Notes under the pieces: generated by a model
What the model was told of the DNA's origin: nothing
What the model saw: only the letters and a program-made list of their open reading frames with translations
Databases searched by the model: none
Shown here: positions 5,986 through 26,569 of the stretch, one piece after another
How positions within the stretch are numbered: the first letter of the stretch is position 1
How the letters are laid out: every line of letters starts with the position of its first letter
Program-made: the position numbers and the translations under genes
Assembly (NCBI RefSeq): GCF_026151205.1
Contig: NC_087074.1
Location: 8,349,726 to 8,413,725 of the forward strand
Direction of reading: 5' to 3'
Origin: Bolinopsis microptera
Lineage: Eukaryota; Ctenophora; Tentaculata; Lobata; Bolinopsidae
Length of the DNA stretch: 64,000 nt

Positions 5986-8900
5986 TCTTATAACCGTACT
6001 ACTGACTCTTATAACCGTACTACTGACTCTTATAACCGTACTACTGACTCTTATAACCGTACTACTGACTCTTATAACCGTACTACTGACTCCTATAACC
6101 GTACTACTGACTCTTATAACCGTACTACTGACTCTTATAACCGTACTACTGACTCTTATAACCGTACTACTGACTCTTATAACCGTACTACTGACTCTTA
6201 TAACCGTACTACTGACTCTTATAACCGTACTACTGACTCTTATAACCGTACTACTGACTCTTATAACCATACTACTGACTCTATAACCGTACTACTGACT
6301 CTTATAACCGTACTACTGACTCTTATAACCGTACTACTGACTCTTATAACCGTACTACTGACTCTTATAACCGTACTACTGACTCTTATAACCGTACTAC
6401 TGACTCTTATAACCGTACTACTGACTCTTATAACCGTACTACTGACTCTTATAACCGTACTACTGACTCTTATAACCGTACTACTGACTCTTATAACCGT
6501 ACTACTGACTCTTATAACCGTACTACTGACTCTTATAACCGTACTACTGACTCTTATAACCGTACTACTGACTCCTATAACCGTACTACTGACTCTTATA
6601 ACCGTACTACTGACTCTATAACCGTACTACTGACTCTTATAACCGTACTACTGACTCTTATAACCGTACTACTGACTCCTATAACCGTACTACTGACTCT
6701 TATAACCGTACTACTGACTCTTATAACCGTACTACTGACTCTTATAACCGTACTACTGACTCTTATAACCGTACTACTGACTCTTATAACCGTACTACTG
6801 ACTCTTATAACCGTACTACTGACTCCTATAACCGTACTACTGACTCTTATAACCGTACTACTGACTCTTATAAACGTACTACTGACTCTTATAACCGTAC
6901 TACTGACTCTTATAACCGTACTACTGACTCTTATAACCGTACTACTGACTCTTATAACCGTACTACTGACTCTTATAACCGTACTACTGACTCTTATAAC
7001 CGTACTACTGACTCTTATAACCGTACTACTGACTCTTATAACCGTACTACTGACTCTTATAACCATACTACTGACTCCTATAACCGTACTACTGACTCTT
7101 ATAACCGTACTACTGACTCTTATAACCGTACTACTGACTCTTATAACCGTACTACTGACTCTTATAACCGTACTACTGACTCTTATAACCGTACTACTGA
7201 CTCTTATAACCGTACTACTGACTCTTATAACCGTACTACTGACTCCTATAACCGTACTACTGACTCTTATAACCGTACTACTGACTCTTATAACCGTACT
7301 ACTGACTCTTATAACCATACTACTGACTCTTATAACCGTACTACTGACTCCTATAACCGTACTACTGACTCTTATAACCGTACTACTGACTCCTATAACC
7401 GTACTACTGACTCTTATAACCGTACTACTGACTCTTATAACCGTACTACTGACTCTTATAACCGTACTACTGACTCTTATAACCGTACTACTGACTCCTA
7501 TAACCGTACTACTGACTCTTATAACCGTACTACTGACTCTTATAACCGTACTACTGACTCTTATAACCGTACTACTGACTCTTATAACCGTACTACTGAC
7601 TCTTATAACCGTACTACTGACTCTTATAACCGTACTACTGACTCTTATAACCGTACTACTGACTCTTATAACCGTACTACTGACTCTTATAACCGTACTA
7701 CTGACTCTTATAACCGTACTACTGACTCTTATAACCGTACTACTGACTCTTATAACCGTACTACTGACTCTTATAACCGTACTACTGACTCTTATAACCG
7801 TACTACTGACTCTTATAACCGTACTACTGACTCTTATAACCGTACTACTGACTCTTATAACCGTACTACTGACTCTTATAACCGTACTACTGACTCTTAT
7901 AACCGTACTACTGACTCTTATAACCGTACTACTGACTCTTATAACCGTACTACTGACTCTTATAACCGTACTACTGACTCTTATAACCGTACTACTGACT
8001 CTTATAACCGTACTACTGACTCTTATAACCGTACTACTGACTCTTATAACCGTACTACTGACTCTTATAACCGTACTACTGACTCTTATAACCGTACTAC
8101 TGACTCTTATAACCGTACTACTGACTCTTATAACCGTACTACTGACTCTTATAACCGTACTACTGACTCTTATAACCGTACTACTGACTCTTATAACCGT
8201 ACTACTGACTCTTATAACCGTACTACTGACTCTTATAACCGTACTACTGACTCTTATAACCGTACTACTGACTCTTATAACCGTACTACTGACTCTTATA
8301 ACCGTACTACTGACTCTTATAACCGTACTACTGACTCTTATAACCGTACTACTGACTCTTATAACCGTACTACTGACTCTTATAACCGTACTACTGACTC
8401 TTATAACCGTACTACTGACTCTTATAACCGTACTACTGACTCTATAACCGTACTACTGACTCTTATAACCGTACTACTGACTCTTATAACCGTACTACTG
8501 ACTCTTATAACCGTACTACTGACTCTTATAACCGTACTACTGACTCTTATAACCGTACTACTGACTCTTATAACCGTACTACTGACTCTTATAACCGTAC
8601 TACTGACTCTTATAACCGTACTACTGACTCTTATAACCGTACTACTGACTCTTATAACCGTACTACTGACTCTTATAACCGTACTACTGACTCTTATAAC
8701 CGTACTACTGACTCTTATAACCGTACTACTGACTCTTATAACCGTACTACTGACTCTTATAACCGTACTACTGACTCTTATAACCGTACTACTGACTCTT
8801 ATAACCGTACTACTGACTCTTATAACCGTACTACTGACTCTTATAACCGTACTACTGACTCTTATAACCGTACTACTGACTCTTATAACCGTACTACTGA

Positions 8901-9153
8901 CTCTTATAACCGTACTACTGACTCTTATAACCGTACTACTGACTCTTATAACCGTACTACTGACTCTTATAACCGTACTACTGACTCTTATAACCGTACT
9001 ACTGACTCTTATAACCGTACTACTGACTCTTATAACCGTACTACTGACTCTTATAACCGTACTACTGACTCTTATAACCGTACTACTGACTCTTATAACC
9101 GTACTACTGACTCTTATAACCGTACTACTGACTCTTATAACCATACTACTGAC
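5986..9153. repeat. Minisatellite, about 150 copies of a 21-bp unit
   Basis: The unit reads TTATAACCGTACTACTGAC followed by TC and repeats with almost no interruption for 3,168 bp. Variants include a T-to-C change giving CTCCTATAACC at nine places, all at or before about 7500, an ACCAT variant (near 6266, 7064, 7316 and 9142), one AAACGT near 6874, and three 20-bp units lacking a T (near 6280, 6616 and 8441). The right half (7500-9153) is nearly uniform. As 21 is seven codons and the unit has no stop in some frames, long artefactual open frames of (TVIRVSS)n and similar arise on both strands. Confidence 0.98.
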
Positions 9154-9365: not shown

Positions 9366-12300
9366 ATGTTTCAGGCGATGGTACAGACCAGATACTCCGT
9401 TCCGGCCTTCACTGAGCCTACTCTGTCGGGAGATAATGGAAATGGGCCTCCTTTTAAACTCGAAGACTTGGAAAAGGTCAAGATGTACCCCGAGCTCAAA
9501 CATTACAGGTCAGATACGATCTCAATCTGCTTGAGTATTTCTGTTTTTGTGAATCACACGTTTTATCTTAACCGTGCACTGACACGTGTTCTGTAGCATT
9601 TCTAAAGAACTTTTAGATTGAAATTTAATGGAAACAGTTTGATGTCTTCCACATCCTCTGAAACAATATTTTTTCTCCCAACATCACTTTAAATTTGATA
9701 ACTTAGCAAATCATAACCTGTGCCACTGCCAACAATAAAATGAAACAAAGTCTGCAGCAATTTTGTACAGTAAAATAGAACCACTTGCACTAGTTAACAA
9801 GACCTACTCGTTTGTGACAGTTGGTGTCAGCTAGCATGTGGTAGCATGTTATTATTATTATTAAGCGTAGGCTTTCCGTCTCTGTTTAAATTCTATTGTT
9901 GAGTTTTAAATATTTGGAGCGCTTTAAAGTGGCTTTTAAACCGAGCTGACTTGAGGACATGAACTTCGCCGGATTAGTACTCAGTAGGTATTGTCCTTAT
10001 TGCTTATACTCTAGCACCGCTGCATAGCACGAGAGATCTTAATGTTTGGACATTGGATCTGAAGAGTCAGAGTACAGGGGTAGTTACTTGATCAGTAAAC
10101 AAACATTCTCCATGACATGCTTTTCTGAACGGTGTACGTTTTGGACCTCCTCCATGCAGTACCTGGCACAATGGTAACAATAAAAGAAAATCCCATAATT
10201 TATAAACAGGTGAACTGTTAAATGCTCTACAGTCTACAGCGCCATGTCTATATAACGTTGAGTATTGACCGCTATTCTACAAGAGATTGTAACCAGCATG
10301 TAGGCGGACTACTGGTCCGGAATGTCCCAACAATTACATGACGCATGTAGATTGTAGATGAGATGGCCAGATGCCACCTGTGCCTGTCAATTCAGCAACA
10401 TAACCAACATGAAATTCGTAGCCATTCCCATTAGTACTGTCCACGAAAATCCCGGCAATGTCGACAAATCTATATCGATTCTAGCTTCAGATTGTATAAT
10501 ATAATAAAGAATATTATATTGATAAAGAATTGTTTCTGCAGATTAGAAGAAAGCTACAAAGTTAGCCAAGATACGAGGAAAATATCTATACCACTCCGCA
10601 CAACGGAAGGAATCAGGCCATTCAGTCCTGGTCGCCTCAGTGACATGGCCAGACCAGTTACAGCACCTGTTGGACCTGTCCGGCCTATCGACTTGTACAG
10701 ATCACGACACGAATTCCAGGATAGAGATTCTGAAGGAAAACCTCGCCAAATTGACTTGAGGTATAGCATATTTGAATTATATTCCGTTGGATGCGTGCGT
10801 TTAATTTTGAAATTAGGTTTAAAGATATCAACATCAATCATGCTACTAGCATGATTGTGTTATCTTTAAACCAAATTCCAAAACGCGCTGCTAGCTTTTA
10901 ACTCTACCTACTGCTTCTGTTTAACATCTATTTTATTTCAAATAGCAGCGTACGGTTATTTAGTCTCATCGATACTGATTTGAATTGATAACTGCGTCTG
11001 CTTGACTACTAAAATGCAACTTTTAAGGAAACACTACTTCAAAATATTTTGACCTGGTACACTCTAACTTACGTAATGTATACTCCTAAGGTTGTCCATG
11101 GCCAGGGAGACGTTCAAGCCCCGCCTCCCCCCAGAGCCTACTCATGTGTGTCGTAGTGACTTCCCTGAGGGCATCTGCGGTAAACCCCAAAACATTATCA
11201 TCAGATCTTTAGAGAAACGGGCCAAAAGGGAGTCCCTCAACTATTCAACGGTGAGTTCCACTTTCATTAATTGTTCTTTCTATTTCTCATTGGCCTACTG
11301 GGTTGATCAGTAACAACGAACTGTAGGGCTGTGAAACGAACAACTTGTCTAATTGCTAATAGAGATAATAAACTGGACCTTGTCTGGTCATGTGGTACGA
11401 TCAGATGAATTCTCATGCGATTTTAACTCAGTGAACATATCCCCAGACCCAACGGAAGATAAACCTCGATAGCAAGGAGTGTAGTATTAACTACCCAATA
11501 CCGCTGAAAATATTCGGAAATTGCAAACCTATCGTACTCAGGACTTGGGAAAGGGTAAGTAAGATTTACTTTATTTCGAATTTTATCTTCCGGTATCTTT
11601 TGTGCGATATTTAGGTACTGACATGGACTCAAATGGCGATGAATCTCTTTGGAACCATTCCCAAAATCATGAATCTATAAAGCTATAATGAGCATTTCAA
11701 AGTCTACAGCTTACTGTAGACTTTGAGCCATGCACAGCAATCAATACAATGTGCAAAAAAGCTTTGAAATAACAACATAATTAATACTACAAACTCAAAT
11801 TACAAATAAGAACTAACCGTAGTCAATTAGGATCAAGGATTAGTCAAGGATACAAGATTAAAAAAGAATACCCATTAATTAGAAGAATCTGCAAATATCA
11901 TGTTGTTAGAAGGGGCACGTGAGAAGTGGGTGGTCGACCTACTTGGTAATCAGTCAATCAATCGGTTAAAATAGTAACGCAATTTTCAATTCGTTCGTGG
12001 TCTCGTCAATTAACGAGAATAGGATATCTGTCTCTTGTACCGTGGGGAATCAGTCAGGAACCTTCAAGGATGCATTCCCTGCTCCCATTTAGTTCCGAAA
12101 AGTGTCTCCTCCCAACGCAGCTTGATAAATTTCGCAACTTTACCTTCAAGAACTCTCTGAAACTCCTCTCCAGAAAACAGTAAATTATAATTGAGATAAC
12201 GTTTATGTTCCTGAGGTATTTAACAGCGTGCAGCAGAGGGGGACTGTAGTCAGAATGTCTTGTCACATTGACAGTGAACCAGGGAAGGAATGAGAGAAGG

Positions 12301-15300
12301 TAAATAGTGGTAACGAGAGTGACTCCCAGTAAACTCTGCCAGTGTAGCTGGTGCACGGTTCTCCTCCTTACTTTGCATGGTATCAGGACAGATGTTAGGA
12401 TCATTGTTGATGCTAGAACCACAAAACATACGCTCTGTATAAAATCACTCTTCTCTCTCCAAACAACTTTAGGAAGCTCCGTCTGTTGGTTAGCACAGGC
12501 TGAGTTGCTAAAAACAGGGCCTGATTGCACACACAGATAGATAACGAATACCCACACCAGGGCGCAGACTGAGTGAGCAGAGCTGCTCGACCAGTTTCTA
12601 GGTCTTAGAGGGATCCTTATCATCAGTAACTTAGCAACCAACAGAGCACATGTTAGACTGCCAGCCAGTGGACAGTAGATCCAGTTAACATGATCCTGGA
12701 TGAAGCACAGGATATCACTCAGTATCATGTGGTCTGAAGTATCACGTGTCACTTCCGGTATCATTACTTTAAACACAGAAAACAGGAGATTGTTCACAGC
12801 GTGATGTTGCAAGATGACTACGATTACCCTGTGTAGTTTAAAGGAAGTGTTTTTAGTTGTCACTATGAGGATAACTGTGTTTCCTGTGAATGAGAACAGG
12901 AATATTATGAGGTTGTAGGCTGTCCAAAAGTGCCGTTCTTCGTCTTTCATATCGAGCGTGTGGTTACTCTTAGGAATCATCTTATCGTACCTAAAAGTAA
13001 TTATGGCGTACAAAATTACATTAAACTTTATTCTAAAGATTGAGAACAGCAAATAAATTGTAACACAGTATATAACGCATGGTTGCAATAAGTACAAAAG
13101 GGAAACTGTTGACTTGCACGGCAATTGAAGTTCTCCAATAGATACAAATACCACGACGAGGATAAATCATGGTACAAATTATCCTAGTGACGTCAATAGC
13201 TTTGAGAATTTGTTCGGTGTACTACGATTATACTGTTGAACACTTAATTACGATCCGTAGCATAGAAATGGAGAAACCCGAAACGGTAAGATCAGTTATG
13301 CAGCAAGGGCAGGGCAACAATTATAGTACATACTCAGACAGTATTTTCATTCGGTCAAACTCTTCAAAGTATCTGAAATATGAGCCTTTGAAGTTAAATG
13401 AAGTACCACTGTCGTCTGTCGAGCAATGTAAAGGAAAATATGCAAAATCTGTGAGCGAGAATTATATTACGGTTGAACACGAATTTATGATCAAGAGCTT
13501 AGAAACAGAGAAAGTTGAAACGCGGTAATATCAGTTATGCAAAGGTAGGGCAGAATGTTAAACTACTCAATCAAAATGTTCATTTTGGCGAGCTTTGCAA
13601 TATATCTAAATTATGAATGTGATGACGTAAATGTAATTGTAACTTTCACTTTCGAGCTGTGCGTGCGAACAAAATGCCAAAATTGTAAATGAGGTAACAC
13701 TTCCTACGATGTAGCAAATACAGAAGCAAAACCTCTCCGGGCCATATTACTATGGAGACATATAGCGCTGGCCATGGAACTGTATATATAGTGTCATTCG
13801 TTATGTCGTCACTCCATTATTTGTTAATTACTGACTGGGTTTCAAGTGAGAGATCCAGTGCAGTGCACAGAGTAACAGAAGGGCCACATTATTAGCGATT
13901 CCCTCCAACAGTGACGTCAGCTCATGACTAATATTCCGTGTAATTAGATGTACAGTGCACACGGCTGCATCCAGGCGATAGTACCTACTGGGAGTTCCAT
14001 CCTACCCTATCCTGCTCTTAGCACGGTGCGTTTACCGTACAGTGCTACATAGCACGGTGAGTTTACCCCAGGGTTGTGGTGCCTGCCACCTAAAAGACTG
14101 GTACTCCTCCTAACGGATGTCATGCAGACTCAGACCGGCACTGTATCGATTTTCGGAGAACGTTCAATTTAACAAATTGAAATAATTGTAGTCGCGCCGT
14201 GAACGAAAGAGTTGGGGGGTCTTGCTGTTACGACAGGGGAACCTAGGGTGGACCTAGGGCGGTATTCAGAGTACCTTGCACCACTCTTCAGTGCCAAGTC
14301 AGTATGAATGCTCAATTCATGCAGTAAGATATCTGGCTTCGAAAAATTGGAGAGAAGGAGGACAAGGAAAACACTGAAATGTGACCAGGAAAACTAAGAA
14401 AATGACAACATTTTGTATTGAGACTCGAGAACCTACACCAACATATTCTTGTTAAATGGATCTAATTCATCACGGACAATAGCTACAAAAATTTCCATAA
14501 CAAAGAAGGATATAGCTAAATATTTAAATAGAAGACTGCATTGTTTAGCTTTTTTATCTTTGTTTTAATGACCCATAAATAATGTAGCACAACTCGATTA
14601 AACCTGTTATATTTCAGCCATCCTCTGGTTGGACACCAAGACAGAGAGCCCAATCTGCTCCTCCATACTCGCGTCCTGGTCCAGGTTTGCTTATTGACTC
14701 AGAGTACCATAAACATTATAGCTTGTTTTAAAACTTCATCAGGATATCGAATTATTGAAACTAATAATATCTAGTGATGACTCCTTTAGGATCCCAAGTG
14801 GCACTTAGCGAGTTCACAGAGCCAACAATAAGTGAGTCTGAGATATACGACTCGACACTTCAGCCTAATTACGAGTGCGAGTGCTATGTTTTGGACGAGC
14901 CTGATGAGGAGTTAAGGTGAGTACTTTCTGTTTTAGAAATTAGTATTTTAGGAATGTTTTTAAATCATATGTAGGAATATTGAAGGAATCATACTTGATA
15001 CCAGTCAACACTTCCCCTCTCATCTCTTTGATATTAATAAAACGTGACAATTATTTTTCATGATTTACATCTCTAGCCTACTAGAAAATCTTGTGCTAAA
15101 ATATACAAACTTGAACTCAAACTTTTAAGATCATATCATACAAACTTTCACTATATCGACCATCTTCTTCAGAGTAAACGAAGGTACATCAGAGCGGCTA
15201 GCACTTTCTCACTACCTCCACATAGTTGGGGAACTAGAGAGCAGTGTCACCTACACCGAGCTAGCTCAACATCTCAGCTCCTTTACACCTGGTAGACAGT

Positions 15301-18300
15301 TAAACATTGTGGAGATTGAGGGCATCAGAGATCTTCTAGATGATTCCAGTGAGATGAAAGTTCTTGCGGCGCTCTGCATCTTAGAAAGGTCTGTCGATTT
15401 TAGTATACATACAGAATATTTATATATGCAAAATGCTTTTTCTTTTTCACTAAAGCATTTTCATATCTCATAATTATTATTTTTTAAACATTTGATAACA
15501 GTGGACAATCAAATCCATCACTGATGTTATTCGGAATTCTTATTTCAACGTCCTCCTTTTTGCAGGTTGTCCACAAAGAAAGAGTTGGGTGAAATGATGA
15601 TAAAAGAATTCTTCATGTTAGTGTTAAGGAAGTGGGTGGCACTTATTAACAGTGACGACTGCCCGAGTAAACTTCTCAATCCCATCATCAACTTTATTGA
15701 AAACGTAAGCATTGGTTGCCAACATTATTTATACTGTGACTGTTTCTATCTTAATACTCTGGAATGTTTACTTACTAGCGGTCCATCCCACCAGACTCCA
15801 GAGTGAAAACTCAATATATGGCTGTTAATGTATTCATGTAACGGTGTCTGTAACTGTAAGCACGGAAAGTTCAAAGAACTAAGCCCCATTCACTGCTTCC
15901 TATGGACTAAATCTAATAAAAACTGCAAGACGTTAAATAATGATAACAATTTTTAAGCCAATATTAAAAAAGTGACAAGTAACTCCACTGTGAGCAGGTG
16001 ACACACTCCACACACCACGACTACTGGTTGGACGATGTGTACAAGGAGCAAATAGTGGAGCAGACTACCGCAAAGATGACGTTTGATGGCACCAGGGCAC
16101 GATGCTGCACTCTGCTGCTCCGGGTCTTCAGTGACTCTCCCTGCTGTGCTAATATTCTCGCTAATACAGCTCTGCCTGAGTGCATGATGCTGCCTCAGGT
16201 TTCAGCTTATATAAAAACTTGAATCCTTTTTTTCAATCGGCTTTTGCAATTATCCTCTGTATTTCGGTTGTTACGTTCTCTAGTTTTCAATTAAGGAATT
16301 GGGTTATGTATCTTGTCTCTTGTTCAACACTAATCTCCCAGTTGCAGGTAAAGCAGACGTATTGGGATGACAGCGAAGAAGCACTATATCTAGACGAAGA
16401 CATCTTCCTCCAGGAGGAAATCCTCAAAATCTTCTGCAACATCGCCCATTCCTCGAGCTTCGGACGGAAGGTCCTCATCTGCCACGCTGTCATAGAAACA
16501 ATATCACGAGTCCTGGTGTTCGCCACGTGTCCAGTGCAGTACCAAGCAGCACTGCTGTGTTCCGCGATATGTGCTGACGTCACAGGGGTAGATCACGTGA
16601 CCAGCAAACTAACCAACGAGAGGGCAGATGAGGCGACCTGTGTTAGACACCTGGCTAACCTCTTCACTCACTCAAAATGTTTGAAAGTGAAAGCGGCCTC
16701 TGGAGCTGCTCTGTTAAGGCTGTTCAGCACCCAGAACCGTAGTCTGGCTCACCGAGGTCTGAAGATGGTACATGATGTAGTGTTCCCTAAAACTAAACCT
16801 CAGCTCTCCAAACGACCCAAAACAGCTCCACCTAGAACTGTACCTGAACGGGCTGTTAATAAGACGGATATCAAGGACATGCTTCAGAAATACATGGAAC
16901 TGTGTACGTCGAAAGGTGCGTTCGCTGATCCTAGATATTTCAGATGTAGACTCATGGCGCTCGAAGCGGTTTACACTCTTCTTCATTTCCCCCTAAAGAA
17001 AGAAGGGCGCTCAATTCCCTTTCATGCTGATCTGGCTAAATCATTCTTTGCTTTCACTGGCAGCAGACTCTTCCGGGACTTGAAGAAAATTGCAGAAAAA
17101 CACCGCTACGTGAAAATATTACAAGACAAGATCCAGAAGATCCAGATAAACCTGATCAAGAAAACAAAACGTAACGTGATGGTCTCCCAGATCTTGGACA
17201 GGCAACTTCAAGAAATAGAAAGTGATAACTCTGTCTTGAAGATTCCAGGCAGAGACTTTGAGATGGCCCGAAACGAACTGGTGTACTGTGAAACTGTCAT
17301 CAAGATACTCAGTTTAATGCTAACGACTGTGAGCAGTAGTCTCAACTTACAGACTCTCGATAGTGGATCTCTTCTCGACTCTACTAGGAGGTTGGTTAGA
17401 ATTTTATTTACTTTCGAGCAATCTGCATTTACTACTTAGTTGTATTGTTATCGTCGTCCGTATTTAACATTGTTGCATAGTTATGCTTAACGTTCAGAAC
17501 ATGTATCGTTAAGCTGCCCTGCTTAACCATACATCTTTTGTCTGTGAAATGTCTTATTTTAAGACTTACTTTTTGATTTGGCACAGCGCACCCAAGATAT
17601 CTCTCCGTAAGGGATTTGGATAGGGTTGGAGCCTCGTCTCAGTGTGTATTTTCTTAATCCGTGCTCATAGGTCACCCCTCCAAAATCTGTATTGAGGATC
17701 GATAACATTTATGAGGAAGCAGGATGGTGCAATGTATCTCTATGCTTGGTTTTCACATCTAAATATAAAATGCCCTTTATTGTACTGAAATTACCAAAAT
17801 TTAAGAAAATGGCATTCCCCTATATTATACCTGGACAAGGTTTCATTTTATGAAGACCTGATCTTGTAATTTAGAAAAGAAGGCAATATTATACAGTTAC
17901 CGTTTCTAACTGAACATCGGCTCAGCCCCTCTTTCAAACTGACATAATAGGTAGGTCTCGCAGTGTAGTCTTTCAAAAATGTGTCTCCATGCTGACACCA
18001 CCTCGTACCTGAGTATCAGATATTGAGTTATGTAATTTTGTTCCCAGCTTCTTCATTATTTTGAACCTTATCGATATTGATTGCTAGAACTATATACAGT
18101 TCAAACTTTAAGGTTTAATCGTAATAAAAATAGAATCGTTCTGTCACATCCTTCTTTAAATCGTTTTGAAGCAGCTCCGGTTTTAGTTTTAGCTAAACTC
18201 ACCAGTTTTGGTTGGTTGTAAAGCGAGTAGCAATATCAGAATACTGATGTACAATGCTTTGCTTTTCCATTGCATCATCTCAAATTGTGTCCGATAAGGT

Positions 18301-21300
18301 AACACAGGTTGCAACCCTGTGTTGTCTGTGGCAGCTGCTCGTTTCACTTAAAGTATCGTGGGGCTCCCCGAGAATATATCTATACGAAAGCAGTCAGAAA
18401 AGCGATCTAAGGCTCAAGCCCAATATTCCTTCAATATTGGAATATATTCAAGTTTTAAACCTCTCAAATATTAAATATCGAATATTGAACATTGCCCCTA
18501 GTGCTAGGTATACCCTCCTCCGTGGATCCATTCACCGTTGTTATTTAATAACATACCATTCAGAAATTAATCTAACGAACACACATCTTGAGATTATTAG
18601 TATAGATTGAGCAGTTTGTCGTTGTTAAATTTTAGAAGCCTACATCCAGTGCTCAGCTACTTCATCTCATATAATTTAGGGTATATCTCGATAGTCGATA
18701 TACACCCTCCAAGAATTATAACTGCTGAATATTTCCGATACAACTCACAGCACACCACCCTCCAAGAATTGTAACTGCTGAATATTTCAGATACAACTCA
18801 CAGTACACCACCCTCCAAGAATTATAACTGCTGAATATTTCAGATACAACTCACAGTACACCACCCTCCAAGAATTATAACTGCTGAATATTTCAGATAC
18901 AACTCACAGTACACCACCCTCCAAGAATTATAACTGCTGAATATTTCAGATACAACTCACAGTACACCACCCTCCAAGAATTATAACTGCTGAATATTTC
19001 AGATACAACTCACAGTACACCACCCAGCACCCTCAAAGAATTATAACTGCTGAATATTTCAGATACAACTCACAGTACACCACCCTTCAAGAATTATAAC
19101 TGCTGAATATTTCAGATACAACTCACAGTACACCACCCTCCAAGACTCGCTCTACAACAAGTATGCTCTGAGTGTACTGCCTGGCCGAGTTAACAGTCCC
19201 TCAAAACCCGCTGTGGGAGACAACTCAGAACAACATCTAGCTTTGGTTAGGAGACTTCTCACCTTCCAAGTGGTGGAGACGTTAGTGCCGTGGCTTTATT
19301 GTGTATATCCTCCTATCACCGTGAGTATAAGTTCTACAAATTATTAAATTCTAAATTAGATTCAGATCGGATAATCCATTCTCTATAATTAAAGGCCCAA
19401 AATTGCGGAGGAGTGGCCGTGACTTCAGTTTCTGTTTCCCATTTTCATGTCAAAGGAAATTATATTAATTCATATAATGCTTTTGGACACGAAGGGAAAC
19501 ACACAAATCTTCGTAAAACTACATCATTAGAGCCTGTAAAAACATCTAACTTTAAGATAAGCACTCTATCAAATAAAATTCATACATAATCATCAGAGTT
19601 CATTAACTCAAAAGTAAAAATTGTAACAAAGACAAAATTTAATCAGTCAATATTCGTGGTTATATAAATTCAACGTGAAAAACTGTTGCCAAAATAAGAC
19701 TTAGAATGAAATCGTTCGTTTTGCGATTCAGCTTTTTCACATTCATTCTCGTTTAATTGTTCTTGTAGACAGCTATTTCAAAAGCTAACCACCCCCTAAC
19801 CAGTAACCACCAATATGAACCATCTGAACGACACACTTTACAGGCACAGGTGCTTTTGTCTCAGCACTTACCTAATATTTTTGAAATTACTTACTCCGAA
19901 GTATAACCTAATTTTCATCACACTTGCTTTACCATTTTCGATAAAATTGGGGGAAAATTTTAACAAAATATACGAACATATATACCACGTTGCAGTATTA
20001 AATTTAACAAAATTTAATATTTGGAATAAAATTAAATTCTGGTCGATGGTAAACCCGATGGTACCCAACTTTTTAGTTCTATTGTATTGGTAAAGGGAAA
20101 TCAGGGTGTGAAAAATTACTGTAATTCATCAGAGCAAAATCAGTCTTAAATATACGATAAAGTCTTTCAATAAGTTCCGGACCCTGCTGGGAAAGCGTCT
20201 CTTTGGCCCGCAGTGCAGACGTTTGGTTCCTCGGATCACTTGTATGGTCGTAGGAACCAAAAAGTTTCGTTGAGGTGTTGATTTTATTTTGTATTTCGTG
20301 GCTGAGAAGATTGCTGTATTCTAATGGCAAAATGTAGTCGTAGGTAACCCCAGGGATGTACAATGTTCGATACTGTGGAGTAAAATGGACGTTTAATCTA
20401 TCTAAATTATCCACAAGCCAACGGAGAAACTGGTTAAAAGTTGGATGACTAGGACTGCTTGTGATATTATCTATCATATTCATCTTCCTGGATATCATAT
20501 GAGCCATAGAGGTAAATGCTCTGCCCTGTGTGTGTTCTCCAGAAAGTTTGTCTCTATACCCCGACACGAGCCTTGTCCAGGGGTTACGAACTACTGTAAA
20601 ACTGAATATATCATCTTCTAGGCTTGCTTTGTTAGCCGCCTCTGATACGGCATTATTGGACATACGGAATGGTTCTGAGTATATCGAATGAACTTTCCAA
20701 ACGGCTCGTGGATCTAAATTCTTATTCAGCGCACCTTCAGCTTTCAGTAGAAACTCTATCCAGTTCGAACACCCAGATTTTGGTATTCCTGTAAATATGG
20801 TTTTTATTTTTGGAAAGTAGTAAGTGTGTTTTGCATTTCTTTCATTTTTCCCAGTCCACTTATTGGGAGATTCGTGAGTCGTGTAACCTAACAGTGATAA
20901 AGTCTTGTTTAATTGTTCTTTAACCCAGCCTTGAGATGGAGGTGGTAGATGGAGGTCGGTGGAACTGTTGGAGACGTGGACCCCAATTTCAATTTTAGGA
21001 CGATTTCCTTTGAATTCACTGATGAAAAAACTGCGTTTGAGTTCAAATAATGTTAAGACCAGGAAAATGATTAACACAGCCCATCTTCCATTCATTGTTT
21101 TAGCCTGCAAATGTAAAGCTCATAATGGGGAATTGTTCAAAATCGACAGCAAAACAAATTTGACAGAAGTATGTTCTACTAAAAACGTTCAAGCATCCAC
21201 GGGGAGGGGGAGGGGGGCTGGCGCTTTGAATGTGGGACAATTTTTAAAACTTAACCTTTTTTCTTTTTTTTTCTTTTTTTTAAAAGCCCCTCGTAAGGGG

Positions 21301-24300
21301 ATTGTCTCTGATTTATTGTTTACATCATAATAAGTTAAAATTAAAAACCCCAATGGGCACTCCAGAAACATAACTACTAGAAAATATATCAAAACTAAAT
21401 AGAAAAACTGAGGTCAAATGTGATAAAATCGCAACAAACTGCAAATAATTGAAAATAAATGTTGAATTCGTTATTTAATGGCACGCAGCAGATTATAAAA
21501 AATGTTATAAAAGTCAGAAAACTGAGGGGCTTAAATTCCGGTCTTTTTGGGCTGAGCGACTTCATAATTTTGCACCGGTTTAACTACGAAAATTTAATGC
21601 GTGTTTTCGAATATAATAGGCGGGTTTATACTTTTGGATTTCAGCTGCGATACTGCTTCTCATCATTTTCTTCCCCAATTGTTAACTTTCGACATTTCAC
21701 CACTTGAAGTTAATCCAAAATGTTTTGAAAAAGGTTTTGAGGGTTGACACAACAAGAGTAAACGCATATTAATCCTTATAGTAACTGTACAGCAACCTTA
21801 ATGAAACTGTACAATAACCGTAAAGTAACCGTTTAATAGCCACATAGTAACCACATAGTAACCGTAACTATATTCGCAGGAGAAGGTGGTAAGATGTCTG
21901 TCCTCACTGTTTACATTCAGTTCAGTACACTCCCTCACTCTACATTGCGACACTGCAGACAAGGAGGAACCTTTTAACGTCCCTGACTTCCTTAACCTCC
22001 AACCCTCCGATGTAAGTAGTTTTCAGTGTGACTTACATAGGATTATTTATAACAGATATTAGTATTACAAGTAATTTGTTTTTGGTTCAAAAGAAATCTT
22101 CCAACACTTCTGGCGTTGTTCCATCTATACCATATTATATACTATCGCATGAGCGACTAAACCTCATTCTTTCATTATAACCAGGAACAGTGATTCCTAA
22201 TTCGGAGCTAGAGTTTTAATTTTCACTGCATAACCCGAACTTCTTTTAAAACGTAGGTTGCTCAATATATGAAGAGTACAAGCGTCACCCCAAAACATAT
22301 CAGTAACAGGGACAGTCGGCCAGTTCGCTTCACAGAGTAAGTGATAATATAATAATAATGAGTGCAGATTTTATTCTAACTTTTTAATAGTCTGTCACTT
22401 CAAAACAGTAAGTAACACTATAATAAACATCAATCACACTATAAACACTATAAACATCAATCACAACTAAACATTTTCTGTTCACGCAAACTTTCCGGCT
22501 TATTAAACCCTTCCTTTCGTTAAATTTTTCGTTAAATTTTTAGTTATAGTATGCTAATGATGGTCGATGATGCTACAGATTAACGATACATACTTTCAGG
22601 CCGCCTCGAACAGCAGAAAGTAATCACGGTAGAATAGTACGACCACCTGTTATAACGATTCCAGTAGCAGGGGTTGTGAAACCAGTTGTAGTTGTTGAGC
22701 AGTGTACACATCATATAGGCAAGTATCGATATGTTTATTTGCAGTCACCATTGGTTGCATAAACACTGTTATTTTGGTTTTACATCTTTGCTTTCATAGT
22801 TAAGAACTCACTATATCATGAAGCACAATATACACAGCTCAGCTTCAGTACGATTGTTATGAAATCATCTGAAGCTACTACAAACAAGGGCCTCTAAAAT
22901 AACATCACACCTTCAGGACACTTGTGCTCAGGAGTTCTCACACAAAACCTACTGATTTGCAACAATCACACGGTCTCCCGTCTTACTGCTCAACTGCTGA
23001 GAGACATCGCCAAGTCAGTTACTGTAAGTACAGCCAATCTCATATTAAAATGTTTGGGAACGGGCAACCAATAACTATAACAATAATAATATTTATATTT
23101 TCTAGTTAATTCCCATCCGCCTGCACTTGCATATCAATGATAAATTGACAAAATTGCTTTATTATTTTCAGAGGGAACAGCTGCTGTGCATGGTAGACGA
23201 TTATCTGCTAGAAAAGCTGACGGAGTATATCATTTTGTGTAATGGTGATGAGGAGAGAATATTTGTTGGTAAGTCTAACTCTAATGACACTCTAAGTAAC
23301 TCTAATGATAATATAAGTGACTCTAAGTAACTCTGAGATCTCTAATGACACTCTAAGTGGCTCTAAGTGACCCTAATGAAACTATTCGAAAAATCGTACA
23401 ATTTTACTAAGCTGAACGTTATATTAAAGTCTCAACAGCCAATAATTCTAATTAAGATAAATTAAGATTGAAAGTCATCGCAAATTAAACTTATGACCAC
23501 TTTTCAGCCCTGGATATTCTAGAAACGCTGATTGAGTTCCAGCCTACGTTAGGAAAGTTATACAACACGGTGGGCGGCTTGAACACCCTAGTGGCTAAAC
23601 TCCTTGGAGCGGCTTCTGAGCAGCTCAAGCAAAAACTATTGAAGATAATCAATAGCCTCCCAAACGATGGTGAGGGCTATTTATGGAATTCTTAACCTAA
23701 CCGTGAATATCTTTGGAATTGATATATTTCACGAATACTTTGTCTTCAAGTTCAATGGACTTACGACGTGTGTGGTTCAATGTTATTGGCTAATAATGGA
23801 TTCCCACGCGGCAGTTTATTATATTTAATGCCACCAACGTGTCTCCAACATTGACCAAAGTAAATCCATTGTTAACATTTATTATATCGGTTAACAATGG
23901 ATTTACTTTCTCCCCGGCAATTTGGGAGTCTAATAAGTAAACCAATAATATGTAAAAAATAAAAAATAACACAAACAATAGAGTTCATATACACACATGT
24001 ATATTGTACATTGTACATTGTATATTGTATATTGTATATTGTACATTGTATGTATTTACGCATTACTAGAAAGCCCGTGGTCAAAGGGAAGAAGGTAATA
24101 TTATTTGTATCTATCTTTGGTAACTTCAGTTTTTATCGCATCAAAAAAATATTCGTCACAAACGAAGATACCGCCGAATTAAATGTAAAACACGTTAAAC
24201 ACAACGTAATTACCACAAAACCGATCAAAATGCCGTTCTAACAATCTTTGCAAGTGAACGTGCGTGTAACAACCATCGTTACTATGGTTACTAATACTAT

Positions 24301-26569
24301 GCAACTTTTATTTGTTTACCTAATTTGCACGTGGGCGGTCGTACATACATTCTACAAAAACAATTCTTTGAATTATAAGTAAGACTAGAAAGCCCGTGGT
24401 AACAGGGACGAAGCTAGTAGTATTCTTTGAAAGAAAGTTATAATCGCATCAAAAAATATCCATCTCAACCGAAGATACAGCCGATTTAAATATAAAACAC
24501 TTTGAACACAACTTAATTACCACAAAACCGATCAAAATGACGTTAAAACAATCTTTGCACGTGCATGTGTGCATTAAAACACCGTTGCTATGGAACCTTT
24601 TGGTTGTTACTTAAATTCCTATTTCTCGTCTAATTTGCACGTGGGCGGTCGTACATACATTCTACAAAAAGAATTCTTTGAATTATAGTAGAGACTAGAA
24701 AACCCGTGGTCACAGGGAGGAAGCTAGTAGTTTTATATTTTTTTGGCAGTCAGTTTTTATCAAATCAAAAATATCCATCACAACCGAAGATACAACCGAT
24801 TAAGATGTAGCTCGCACTGAACACAAATAACAACAAAAACGATCAAAATGCCATTCCAACAATCTTTGCACGTGCACGTGCGTGTAATAACCCTCGTTGG
24901 CAACTTGGTCGTTTAGCTCCGGACAGTCTATGCAACGTCTATGCAACGTCCATGCACAATGAACACTCTATGCACACTCCCTGCACGGTCAGTCTATGCA
25001 ACGTCTATGCAACGTCTATGCAACGTCTATGCAACGTCCCTGCACAGTACCATATGAACACCGGCTACTAGCCGGCTACTAGCCGGCTACTAGCCGGCTA
25101 GTAGCCACTTTTGTAATAACAGCTCCTCAACTTCACATTACCAACCGGCTACTAACCGGCACTTGAAAAGTGGTCACTAGCCGGCTACTAACCGGCTACT
25201 AGCCGGCTAGTGACCACAAAGTGGCTACTAACCGGCTACTAAGCGGTCACTAGCCGGCTATTAGCCGAGCTATAAAGCAGACCTACTAGTTAGTAGCCAC
25301 TTGGTGGTTACTAGCCGGTTAGTAGCCGGTTAGTAGCCGGCTAGTGACCGCTTTTCAAGTGCCGGCTAGTAGCCGGTTTAGAACCGGCTACTAATAGGTC
25401 TGCTTTAGAGCTCGGCTAATAGCCGGCTAGTGACCGCTTAGTAGCCGGTTAGTAGCCACTTTGTGGTCACTAGCCGGCTAGTAGCCGGTTAGTAGCCGGC
25501 TAGTGACCACTTTTCAAGTGCCGGTTAGTAGCCGGTTGTTAATGTGAAGTTGAGGAGCTGTTATTACAAAAGTGGCTACTAGCCGGCTAATAGCCGGCTA
25601 GTAGCCGGTGTTCATATGGTACTGTGCAGGGACGTTGCATAGACGTTGCATAGACGTTGCATAGACTGACCGTGCAGGGAGTGTGCATAGAGTGTTCATT
25701 GTGCAGGGACGTTGCATAGACGTTGCATAGACGGTTCTTTTGTTGTTGCACGGACGTTGCATAGACGTTGCATAGACTGTCCGGAGCTAAACGACCAACT
25801 TCCCCCCTCGTTACTATGGTTACTATAAAACTTCTTATTTTCATCTAATTTGTACGTGGGCGGTCGTACAGACAGCAGAAATAATTCTTTGAATTATAGG
25901 TCAGATAATATAAGATAATGTTTATGGAGTAATATTAAGGCTGTTCGCCAAAAATTGGATTTAATAACTATTGGTGATATATTTATGATATATATGATGT
26001 AACCAGCGACCCCTAAAGAAGATGAGCCTATCGTTTTATCATCTAAGAGCTTATAATTTTAAAATTTTACCGCAAATTCCTTGACCTTCAATTAAAAATT
26101 GCTGCAAAATAAAAATTGCTTAAAAATGCTAAATAACAATTTTCAGTTAGAGAACCTTATCTTACTTGTCTACCGACCAAATTATTGATAAATTGCATCT
26201 CAAACATTTACCACCCATATCAGATCGCTGGTGTCAAGCTAACAAAGTGGATTGCGTCAGTGACTGCAAGCATATTGATGTCTGGCATAAGGTTGGAACA
26301 TTTTCTTACAAAGAACCTACTTCAACTTTACTTCTAACTCTCGACCTCCAATAATTGAGAATGTTTTTTATCGTGTTCTTTAAATTCAATTAATAACATT
26401 GGTTTAAGGTTTACGTAACATAAAAGTAAGTTACATTCCTCCAGGTAACGAGCAAATGGGAAAACCAAGACAACGTCAGCAAGTTAATGTCAGTGGAACT
26501 CTAGCAATAGCTCCTCTAGTACCACCTAGTAATCTAGTCGTTATACCACCAACAACTGTGTCTTGTTAA
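9366..26569 (+). CDS. Large helical-repeat (armadillo/HEAT-like) protein, 17 exons
   Basis: Seventeen exons stay in phase for 1,113 residues: 9366-9508, 10542-10760, 11091-11250, 14618-14684, 14790-14916, 15173-15388, 15566-15704, 15998-16198, 16348-17390, 19116-19320, 21880-22011, 22257-22336, 22600-22718, 22917-23023, 23172-23268, 23508-23669 and 26445-26569. Residues 1-240 are Pro/Ser/Arg-rich and probably disordered, with the motif FTEPTLS in exon 1 recurring as FTEPTIS in exon 5. From exon 6 on the chain is amphipathic helices (for example LKIFCNIAHSSSFGRKVLI and ALLCSAICADV), interrupted by a basic linker in exon 9. I do not recognise the orthologue; an armadillo/HEAT fold is inference from helix pattern. 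Exon 13 uses a GC donor (AG/GCAAGT). The start is uncertain: ATGs at 9366 and 9378 are both in frame, and TTTCAG at 9369-9374 could make exon 1 internal. Introns 3 and 10 host antisense genes. Confidence 0.8.
9509..10541. other. Intron 1 of the helical-repeat gene
   Basis: AT-rich intron with a short ATT run near 9851-9862. I see no nested gene or clear transposon. Confidence 0.5.
10797..10888. repeat. Imperfect hairpin in intron 2, 36 bp past the exon 2 donor
   Basis: Two arms of roughly 45 bp face each other. AGGTTTAAAGATA on the left pairs with TATCTTTAAACC on the right, and the core AATCATGCTACTAGCATGATT is close to a perfect palindrome. It may be a small foldback MITE or a structured intron element. 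Confidence 0.7.
11698..11725. repeat. Perfect short hairpin in intron 3
   Basis: AAAGTCTACAG and CTGTAGACTTT form an 11-bp perfect stem around a 4-base TTA-type loop. Too short to assign a function. Confidence 0.6.
12054..12980 (-). CDS. Rhodopsin-like seven-helix receptor (GPCR), intronless, nested in intron 3
   Basis: The 308-residue chain starting at the ATG at 12980 has seven hydrophobic segments. The open frame continues upstream without an obvious signal sequence, so I start at the Met before the NHT glycosylation site. TM1 carries the class A GN motif (FTGNTVILIV). TM2 lacks the usual LxxxD Asp (AVNNLLFSVFKVMI). After TM3 the DRY position reads MIRIPLR. TM6 has LLSFLPWF, and TM7 reads NVISIIIYCFLERSF where NPxxY is expected, followed by a helix-8-like SFREFLKVKLRNL. 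The ligand is unknown. It lies antisense inside the 3.4-kb intron of the helical-repeat gene. Class A-like membership is inference from topology and TM1; the atypical motifs leave room for a divergent or non-signalling receptor. Confidence 0.7.
   Translation of the reverse strand: MIPKSNHTLDMKDEERHFWTAYNLIIFLFSFTGNTVILIVTTKNTSFKLHRVIVVILQHHAVNNLLFSVFKVMIPEVTRDTSDHMILSDILCFIQDHVNWIYCPLAGSLTCALLVAKLLMIRIPLRPRNWSSSSAHSVCALVWVFVIYLCVQSGPVFSNSACANQQTELPKVVWREKSDFIQSVCFVVLASTMILTSVLIPCKVRRRTVHQLHWQSLLGVTLVTTIYLLSFLPWFTVNVTRHSDYSPPLLHAVKYLRNINVISIIIYCFLERSFREFLKVKLRNLSSCVGRRHFSELNGSRECILEGS
17391..18702. other. Intron 9 body of the helical-repeat gene
   Basis: AT-rich intron without a recognised gene. 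The open frame at 18254-18610 shows no family signature. The intron ends in the 53-bp array described next. Confidence 0.5.
18703..19150 (+). repeat. 53-bp tandem array duplicating the 3' splice site of exon 10
   Basis: Eight units with a 53-bp period run into exon 10; one unit carries about 7 extra bases near 19025. Each unit holds CTGCTGAATATTTCAG, an acceptor, followed by ATACAACTCACAGTACACCA, the first bases of exon 10. Acceptor AGs end at 18790, 18843, 18896, 18949, 19002, 19062 and 19115. The first unit reads TTTCCG and has no AG. Only the last acceptor gives an open frame. From any earlier one, translation in the exon 9 phase meets TAA within the unit (GAA TTA TAA). Confidence 0.93.
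20079..21095 (-). CDS. HNK-1-family carbohydrate sulfotransferase (CHST8-14-like), intronless
   Basis: This 338-residue Golgi type II membrane enzyme should transfer sulfate from PAPS to a glycan. The acceptor sugar (GalNAc, chondroitin or HNK-1 type) cannot be told. Residues 5-20 form a single signal-anchor helix (WAVLIIFLVLTLFEL), followed by a stem. The 5'-phosphosulfate loop is GIPKSGCSNW (about 103-112) and the 3'-phosphate site is VVRNPWTRLVSGYRDK (168-183). FTPQYRTLYIPGVTYDYI matches the family's later conserved block. Seven or more N-glycosylation sequons are present. I use the ATG at 21095 and not the upstream TTG. Length is normal for Sulfotransfer_2 proteins. The gene lies antisense within intron 10 (19321-21879) of the helical-repeat gene and has no introns. 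Confidence 0.9.
   Translation of the reverse strand: MNGRWAVLIIFLVLTLFELKRSFFISEFKGNRPKIEIGVHVSNSSTDLHLPPPSQGWVKEQLNKTLSLLGYTTHESPNKWTGKNERNAKHTYYFPKIKTIFTGIPKSGCSNWIEFLLKAEGALNKNLDPRAVWKVHSIYSEPFRMSNNAVSEAANKASLEDDIFSFTVVRNPWTRLVSGYRDKLSGEHTQGRAFTSMAHMISRKMNMIDNITSSPSHPTFNQFLRWLVDNLDRLNVHFTPQYRTLYIPGVTYDYILPLEYSNLLSHEIQNKINTSTKLFGSYDHTSDPRNQTSALRAKETLSQQGPELIERLYRIFKTDFALMNYSNFSHPDFPLPIQ
23271..23382. repeat. Degenerate CTCTAAGTAA-type repeat starting at the exon 15 donor
   Basis: Immediately after the exon 15 donor (GTAAGTCTAAC) the sequence cycles through CTCTAATGACA and CTCTAAGTAAC-like units of about 10-20 bp. Several contain TAAGTAAC or TAAGTGAC, which resemble donor sites. Confidence 0.65.
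23857..23908. repeat. Short inverted repeat in intron 16
   Basis: AAAGTAAATCCATTGTTAAC is answered by GTTAACAATGGATTTACTTT after about a dozen bases, giving a 20-bp perfect stem. Confidence 0.8.
24000..24055. repeat. TGTATATTGTACAT-type microsatellite
   Basis: A run of 8-10-bp units alternating TGTACAT and TGTATAT lies directly before the first Helitron-like end. Confidence 0.7.
24066..24384 (-). mobile_element. Non-autonomous Helitron-like element, copy 1
   Basis: Read on the minus strand, the 3' terminus is a CCC...GGG-type hairpin followed by CTAG, and the 5' end begins TCTTACTTATAATTC. The interior shares blocks such as GCACGTGGGCGGTCGTACAT and CGATCAAAATG with copies 2, 3 and the plus-strand copy at 29724. 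It carries no Rep/helicase coding sequence. Helitron assignment rests on TC start, 3' hairpin, CTAG end and lack of TIRs. Confidence 0.6.
24385..24694 (-). mobile_element. Non-autonomous Helitron-like element, copy 2
   Basis: It abuts copy 1. On the minus strand it begins TCTCTACTATAATTC, a typical Helitron 5' end, and finishes with a CCTGTTACCACGGG-type hairpin, TTT and CTAG. Interior blocks are shared with copies 1 and 3. Confidence 0.65.
24695..25905 (-). mobile_element. Non-autonomous Helitron-like element, copy 3, split by a foldback element
   Basis: The 3' side (CTAGAAAACCCGTGG) and the 5' side (minus-strand TCTGACCTATAATTC, ending at 25905 before T) match copies 1 and 2. A 906-bp insert separates them at 24899-25804. 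The insertion point is in the TAACCCTCGTT block that is uninterrupted in the plus-strand copy near 29820. Confidence 0.65.
24899..25804. mobile_element. Foldback transposable element with arrayed arms, inside Helitron copy 3
   Basis: The two halves are inverted copies for nearly their whole length. The outer arms start with ACTTGGTCGTTTAGCTCCGG-like sequence and carry subrepeats of GTCTATGCAAC. The inner arms carry repeats of CCGGCTACTAG, and the centre is near 25290. The element is flanked on both sides by CCCTCGTT, an 8-bp target duplication at 24891-24898 and 25805-25812. No coding sequence is seen. The 8-bp duplication fits hAT-like mobilisation. Confidence 0.85.

Follow-up and report, generated by a model that had tools for sequence, protein, structure and literature searches.

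A 53-bp minisatellite straddles the border between an intron and a coding exon within the window, the 64,000-nucleotide stretch of DNA analysed here (positions 8349726-8413725 of contig C3; coordinates below are those of the window unless stated otherwise). We consider it likely that this array is a tolerated mirage that was homogenised recently; by mirage we mean a minisatellite that has expanded over an intron/exon border through tandem duplication. This explanation is the best supported because structures of this kind are known and have been reported as neutral for splicing in amphioxus, because the copies look young, and because acceptor arrays are not clearly enriched in the genome. A preliminary description of the same DNA had named a tolerated accident as one of three readings; for the other two, a poison-exon switch and a length-variable regulator of splicing, we found no positive evidence.

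The host gene spans 9378-23695 on the forward strand and comprises 17 coding exons that encode a conceptual protein of 1112 amino acids. The exon model was built by joining AG acceptors and GT donors, with a single GC donor, through uninterrupted frame from a guessed start codon, and in this conceptual model the frame is open across all junctions of the 17 exons for 1112 codons, with a stop at its end. A long frame that is intact throughout argues against a pseudogene, and this possibility was rejected. The first 916 residues of the protein matched no Pfam family and gave no convincing match in the PDB, and searches of the genome with two of the gene's exons returned no paralogue, the one match at 27% identity (E 1.2) being noise. 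The array lies at the border between exons 10 and 11 of this model, which had been numbered 9 and 10 in the preliminary description. The upstream exon (16348-17390, forward strand) has an open frame with AG and GT borders and ends in phase 2 at the donor GAG/GTTGGT, while the downstream exon (19116-19320, forward strand; 205 nt) is open, terminates at the donor ACC/GTGAGT and continues into 21880-22011. The phase 2 end at 17390 and the downstream frame together fix the exon border.

The host gene and its surroundings contain a number of other features. The GC donor is found at 22719 (TAG/GCAAGT). Roughly 151 copies of a 21-bp minisatellite unit occupy 5986-9153, just 5' of the first coding exon, whose ATG is at 9378, and a degenerate 21-bp array (23276-23376) begins immediately 3' of the exon 16 donor (23269), its copies being similar to the donor region except that most have CTAAGT in place of GTAAGT. 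Two single-exon open reading frames on the reverse strand are nested in introns of the gene, one encoding a Sulfotransfer_2 protein (PF03567; 20082-21119) and one that by eye is GPCR-like and is without a Pfam match (12057-13166). Downstream of the gene, 24899-25804 is a large nested palindrome of 11-bp repeats, with 98% complementarity between its arms at 25072-25290 and 25390-25608.

Tandem Repeats Finder places the minisatellite at 18703-19145, with a period of 53, 8.2 copies, 94% matches and a score of 788, and the array is far beyond chance. It consists of eight full 53-bp units and a 12-bp partial unit, all read on the forward strand, with the unit sequence CACCCTCCAAGAATTATAACTGCTGAATATTTCAG/ATACAACTCACAGTACAC and small changes among the eight. 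With the border placed by frame, each unit contains 35 bp up to the AG followed by 18 bp beyond it. Units 3-6 (18809-19020) are identical, with no pairwise differences, and carry acceptors ending at 18843, 18896, 18949 and 19002. Unit 2 (18756-18808; acceptor end 18790), unit 7 (19028-19080; acceptor end 19062) and unit 8 (19081-19133; acceptor end 19115) each differ from these by one base, which in unit 2 is an A to G change at -20. Unit 1 (18703-18755) differs by two and has lost its acceptor, reading TTTCCG at 18737 where units 2-8 retain an intact TTTCAG. Between units 6 and 7 there is a 7-bp insertion (19021-19027, placement ambiguous) that widens the acceptor spacing to 60. The partial unit, CACCCTCCAAGA (19134-19145), is exonic and closes the array. 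Unit 1 begins, within the intron, with this 12-mer as well, and the window contains no copy of it outside the array. The seven acceptor positions listed in the preliminary description were therefore exact, as was its statement that a 53-bp unit, whose length is not a multiple of three, covers the intron/exon border and copies the acceptor together with the first bases of the exon. Its count of seven units has to be raised to eight, the additional one being unit 1.

In the whole 264.65-Mb assembly (232 contigs) the array sequence has a single match, and a mobile or multi-copy origin was rejected on account of this single locus. A second haplotype of the locus was likewise not found in the assembly.

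The consequences of using each acceptor can be predicted from the reading frame. The acceptor of unit 8, at 19115, alone among those of the array leads through 19116-19320 into 21880-22011, such that the last copy would be the only productive one, as had been claimed. Splicing to 18790, 18843, 18896, 18949 or 19062 reaches a TAA after 34 nt. From 19002, 94 nt are read before a TAA, since the 60-nt spacing to 19062 carries this acceptor through one unit in another frame; the assertion that all six upstream acceptors meet a TAA within one unit therefore stands for five of them and fails for 19002. Skipping of the exon at 19116-19320 leads to a stop as well.

We then ranked the acceptors using a matrix built from the 15 other acceptors of the host gene, which is small and serves to rank sites, not to predict their usage. 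The acceptors from 18843 to 19115, six in number, all score 7.6 bits and outrank every other one of the 109 AGs found from the upstream donor to the exon end. The acceptor at 18790 is slightly weaker through its one base (5.7 bits), and so the suggestion that the upstream acceptors are as good as the last one applies to 18843-19062 but not to 18790. The preceding AG-free stretch is 22 nt in every unit, compared to 12-64 nt in the 15 other acceptors. Under the scanning rule for AG choice, the branch point should lie either in the AG-exclusion zone or at most some 15 nt 5' of it (PMC1431707), so that a branch point is expected within the length of each unit. Each acceptor-bearing unit would thus be a self-contained, complete acceptor, and with an AG-exclusion zone in every unit the choice would be a competition among acceptors as opposed to scanning from one distant branch point. 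Concealment of the upstream copies by RNA structure was rejected as weak, as no strong structure emerged when the region was folded (z -1.4).

If the array were merely intronic, the real acceptor would have to be within the exon, with 19196, 19172, 19250 and 19253 as examples, and the four in-phase AGs at these positions do leave the frame open. However, these four score between -4.5 and 2.8 bits, compared to 7.6 bits for 19115 and 3.3-16.3 bits for the gene's true acceptors, which were scored with the matrix that they themselves built, and from 19117 onwards no stop breaks the frame. We regard this placement as highly improbable. An in-frame ladder of 12-nt microexons was also considered, in which the GT near each acceptor would act as a donor. 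By inspection, this GT (ACA/GTACAC) is a poor donor, it is lost in unit 1, and its use would require a 41-nt intron; the ladder was dropped given the weak donor and the short intron.

The premature stops raise the question of whether the array acts as a switch, in which regulated use of an upstream acceptor adds a TAA-bearing extension and lowers expression through nonsense-mediated decay (NMD). The TAA at +34 or +94 that awaits every upstream acceptor is what such a poison extension would require, and five of the upstream acceptors score the same as the last, with the sixth nearly so. Yet any tandem copy whose unit contains a stop would behave alike, the copies look young and are homogenised, folding of the region revealed no regulatory RNA structure, and the protein, having no match to a known family, gives no indication of being an autoregulated splicing factor. 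We consider a regulated switch of this type unlikely.

A related proposal is that copy number varies between individuals, and that it determines what fraction of the mRNA is productive. The array is a minisatellite with identical central units, and the amphioxus globin gene BflGb6 has six and three copies in two haplotypes (PMC3087553), both of which are compatible with variable length. However, the assembly contains no second haplotype with which to compare the locus, and variation in length does not by itself make a regulator; we consider this reading very unlikely. Least probable, in our estimation, is its extension to a natural rheostat, in which copy number would change from one individual to the next and the balance between productive mRNA and NMD would depend on how many acceptors compete.

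A tolerated mirage, our preferred explanation, would have arisen from a border that carried the 12-bp direct repeat CACCCTCCAAGA in two copies 53 bp apart. Slippage or unequal exchange between these repeats would have multiplied the branch site, the AG and the first exon bases together, and the array was probably seeded in this manner, although the 12-bp repeat could instead be a product of the duplication and not its cause. The centre of the array would afterwards have been homogenised while its edges drifted, and the identical centre and diverged edges fit ordinary minisatellite turnover; we infer both the origin and the age from the single array. From general knowledge of splicing, exon definition would favour unit 8, the only unit that runs straight into the real exon with its donor, and productive mRNA would use the last copy, at 19115. 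Use of an upstream copy would add between 53 and 325 nt together with an early stop, and the resulting mRNA would be directed to NMD. The array would thus be tolerated, although with a somewhat reduced output of the gene.

Next, we looked for a genome-wide excess of comparable arrays by counting three TTTNCAG words spaced 30-60 bases apart, with CAGNTTT, the same words in swapped order, as the control. There were 5903 matches for TTTNCAG and 4775 for CAGNTTT, a modest difference in raw matches that are dominated by a few long arrays, and one that is neither evidence of TTTNCAG enrichment nor proof against it. The backward control counts were far lower (965 and 1043), and word composition also contributes. 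With repeated TTTNCAG not clearly commoner than its order-swapped control, nothing suggests selection for acceptor arrays, and genome-wide selection was set aside as an explanation. Arrays with periods of 10-200 occupy 1.2% of 113 kb in 30 kinase loci, a rough substitute sample for array density, compared to 7.3% of the window, most of which is one 3.2-kb array. Among eleven array loci inspected on contig C1, with gene context judged by open frames alone, no second mirage was recognised. One of the eleven (L068) proved to be a coding repeat: an open frame at 1705-2178 on the reverse strand of that locus encodes a sequence that is Ig-like by eye and contains an in-frame 51-bp tandem repeat, with 17 residues per unit.

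Minisatellites that affect splice sites have been encountered in several settings. In human IFI6/6-16 (G1P3), which contains a minisatellite with multiple splice donor sites, a splice site is multiplied as it is here; that array, however, acts on the donor side and has a short unit. Internal tandem repeats at exon-intron boundaries have also been described in segmentally duplicated human genes (PMC2812944). These too are minisatellites located at boundaries, where they change splicing; they differ in that they were found by comparison of paralogues, are linked to new introns and have a mean unit of about 30 bp. Intron gain by tandem genomic duplication (for example PMC4974935) similarly copies splice signals by tandem duplication; unlike the present case it creates a new intron, whereas here we saw none and the units are without a good donor.

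The closest resemblance is to the mirages of amphioxus, which have been described for Adh3, the globins BflGb6 and BflGb9, TnC and PGBD5 (PMC3087553, PMC3902484), the same structure being reported for lancelet Adh, TnC and PGBD5 (PMC3902484). In BflGb6 the repeat combines the 3' terminus of an intron with the beginning of exon 2, its array has a homogenised centre from which the diverged boundary is excluded, and RT-PCR suggests that splicing is regular (PMC3087553). The present array likewise consists of minisatellite-like tandem copies across an intron/exon border (period 53, 8.2 copies), and as in BflGb6 the 3' end of the intron and a 5' part of the exon are repeated together. Its centre has evolved in concert, units 3-6 being identical and the edge units 1, 2, 7 and 8 differing by one or two bases, its unit size falls within the 10-160 bp range of the amphioxus examples, and many of its copies retain splice signals. 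It differs in that it lies in a different gene, in what is apparently a different organism, and is known from genomic sequence alone. At 264.65 Mb the genome is below the sizes known for lancelets, and the host may therefore be something else; a COX1 search gave no match. Judged by these comparisons, the array shows the tested structural features of an amphioxus-type mirage and appears to belong to this known kind of structure; regular splicing in spite of it would be expected by analogy, carried over from the papers on mirages in other genes. The array by itself does not demonstrate a new mechanism. Nevertheless, a series of seven acceptors that are almost the same amounts to a natural competition experiment on site choice by the spliceosome, as hardly anything except position sets the other copies apart from the productive one. 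If the host is not a lancelet, the array extends mirages beyond the group in which they were named.
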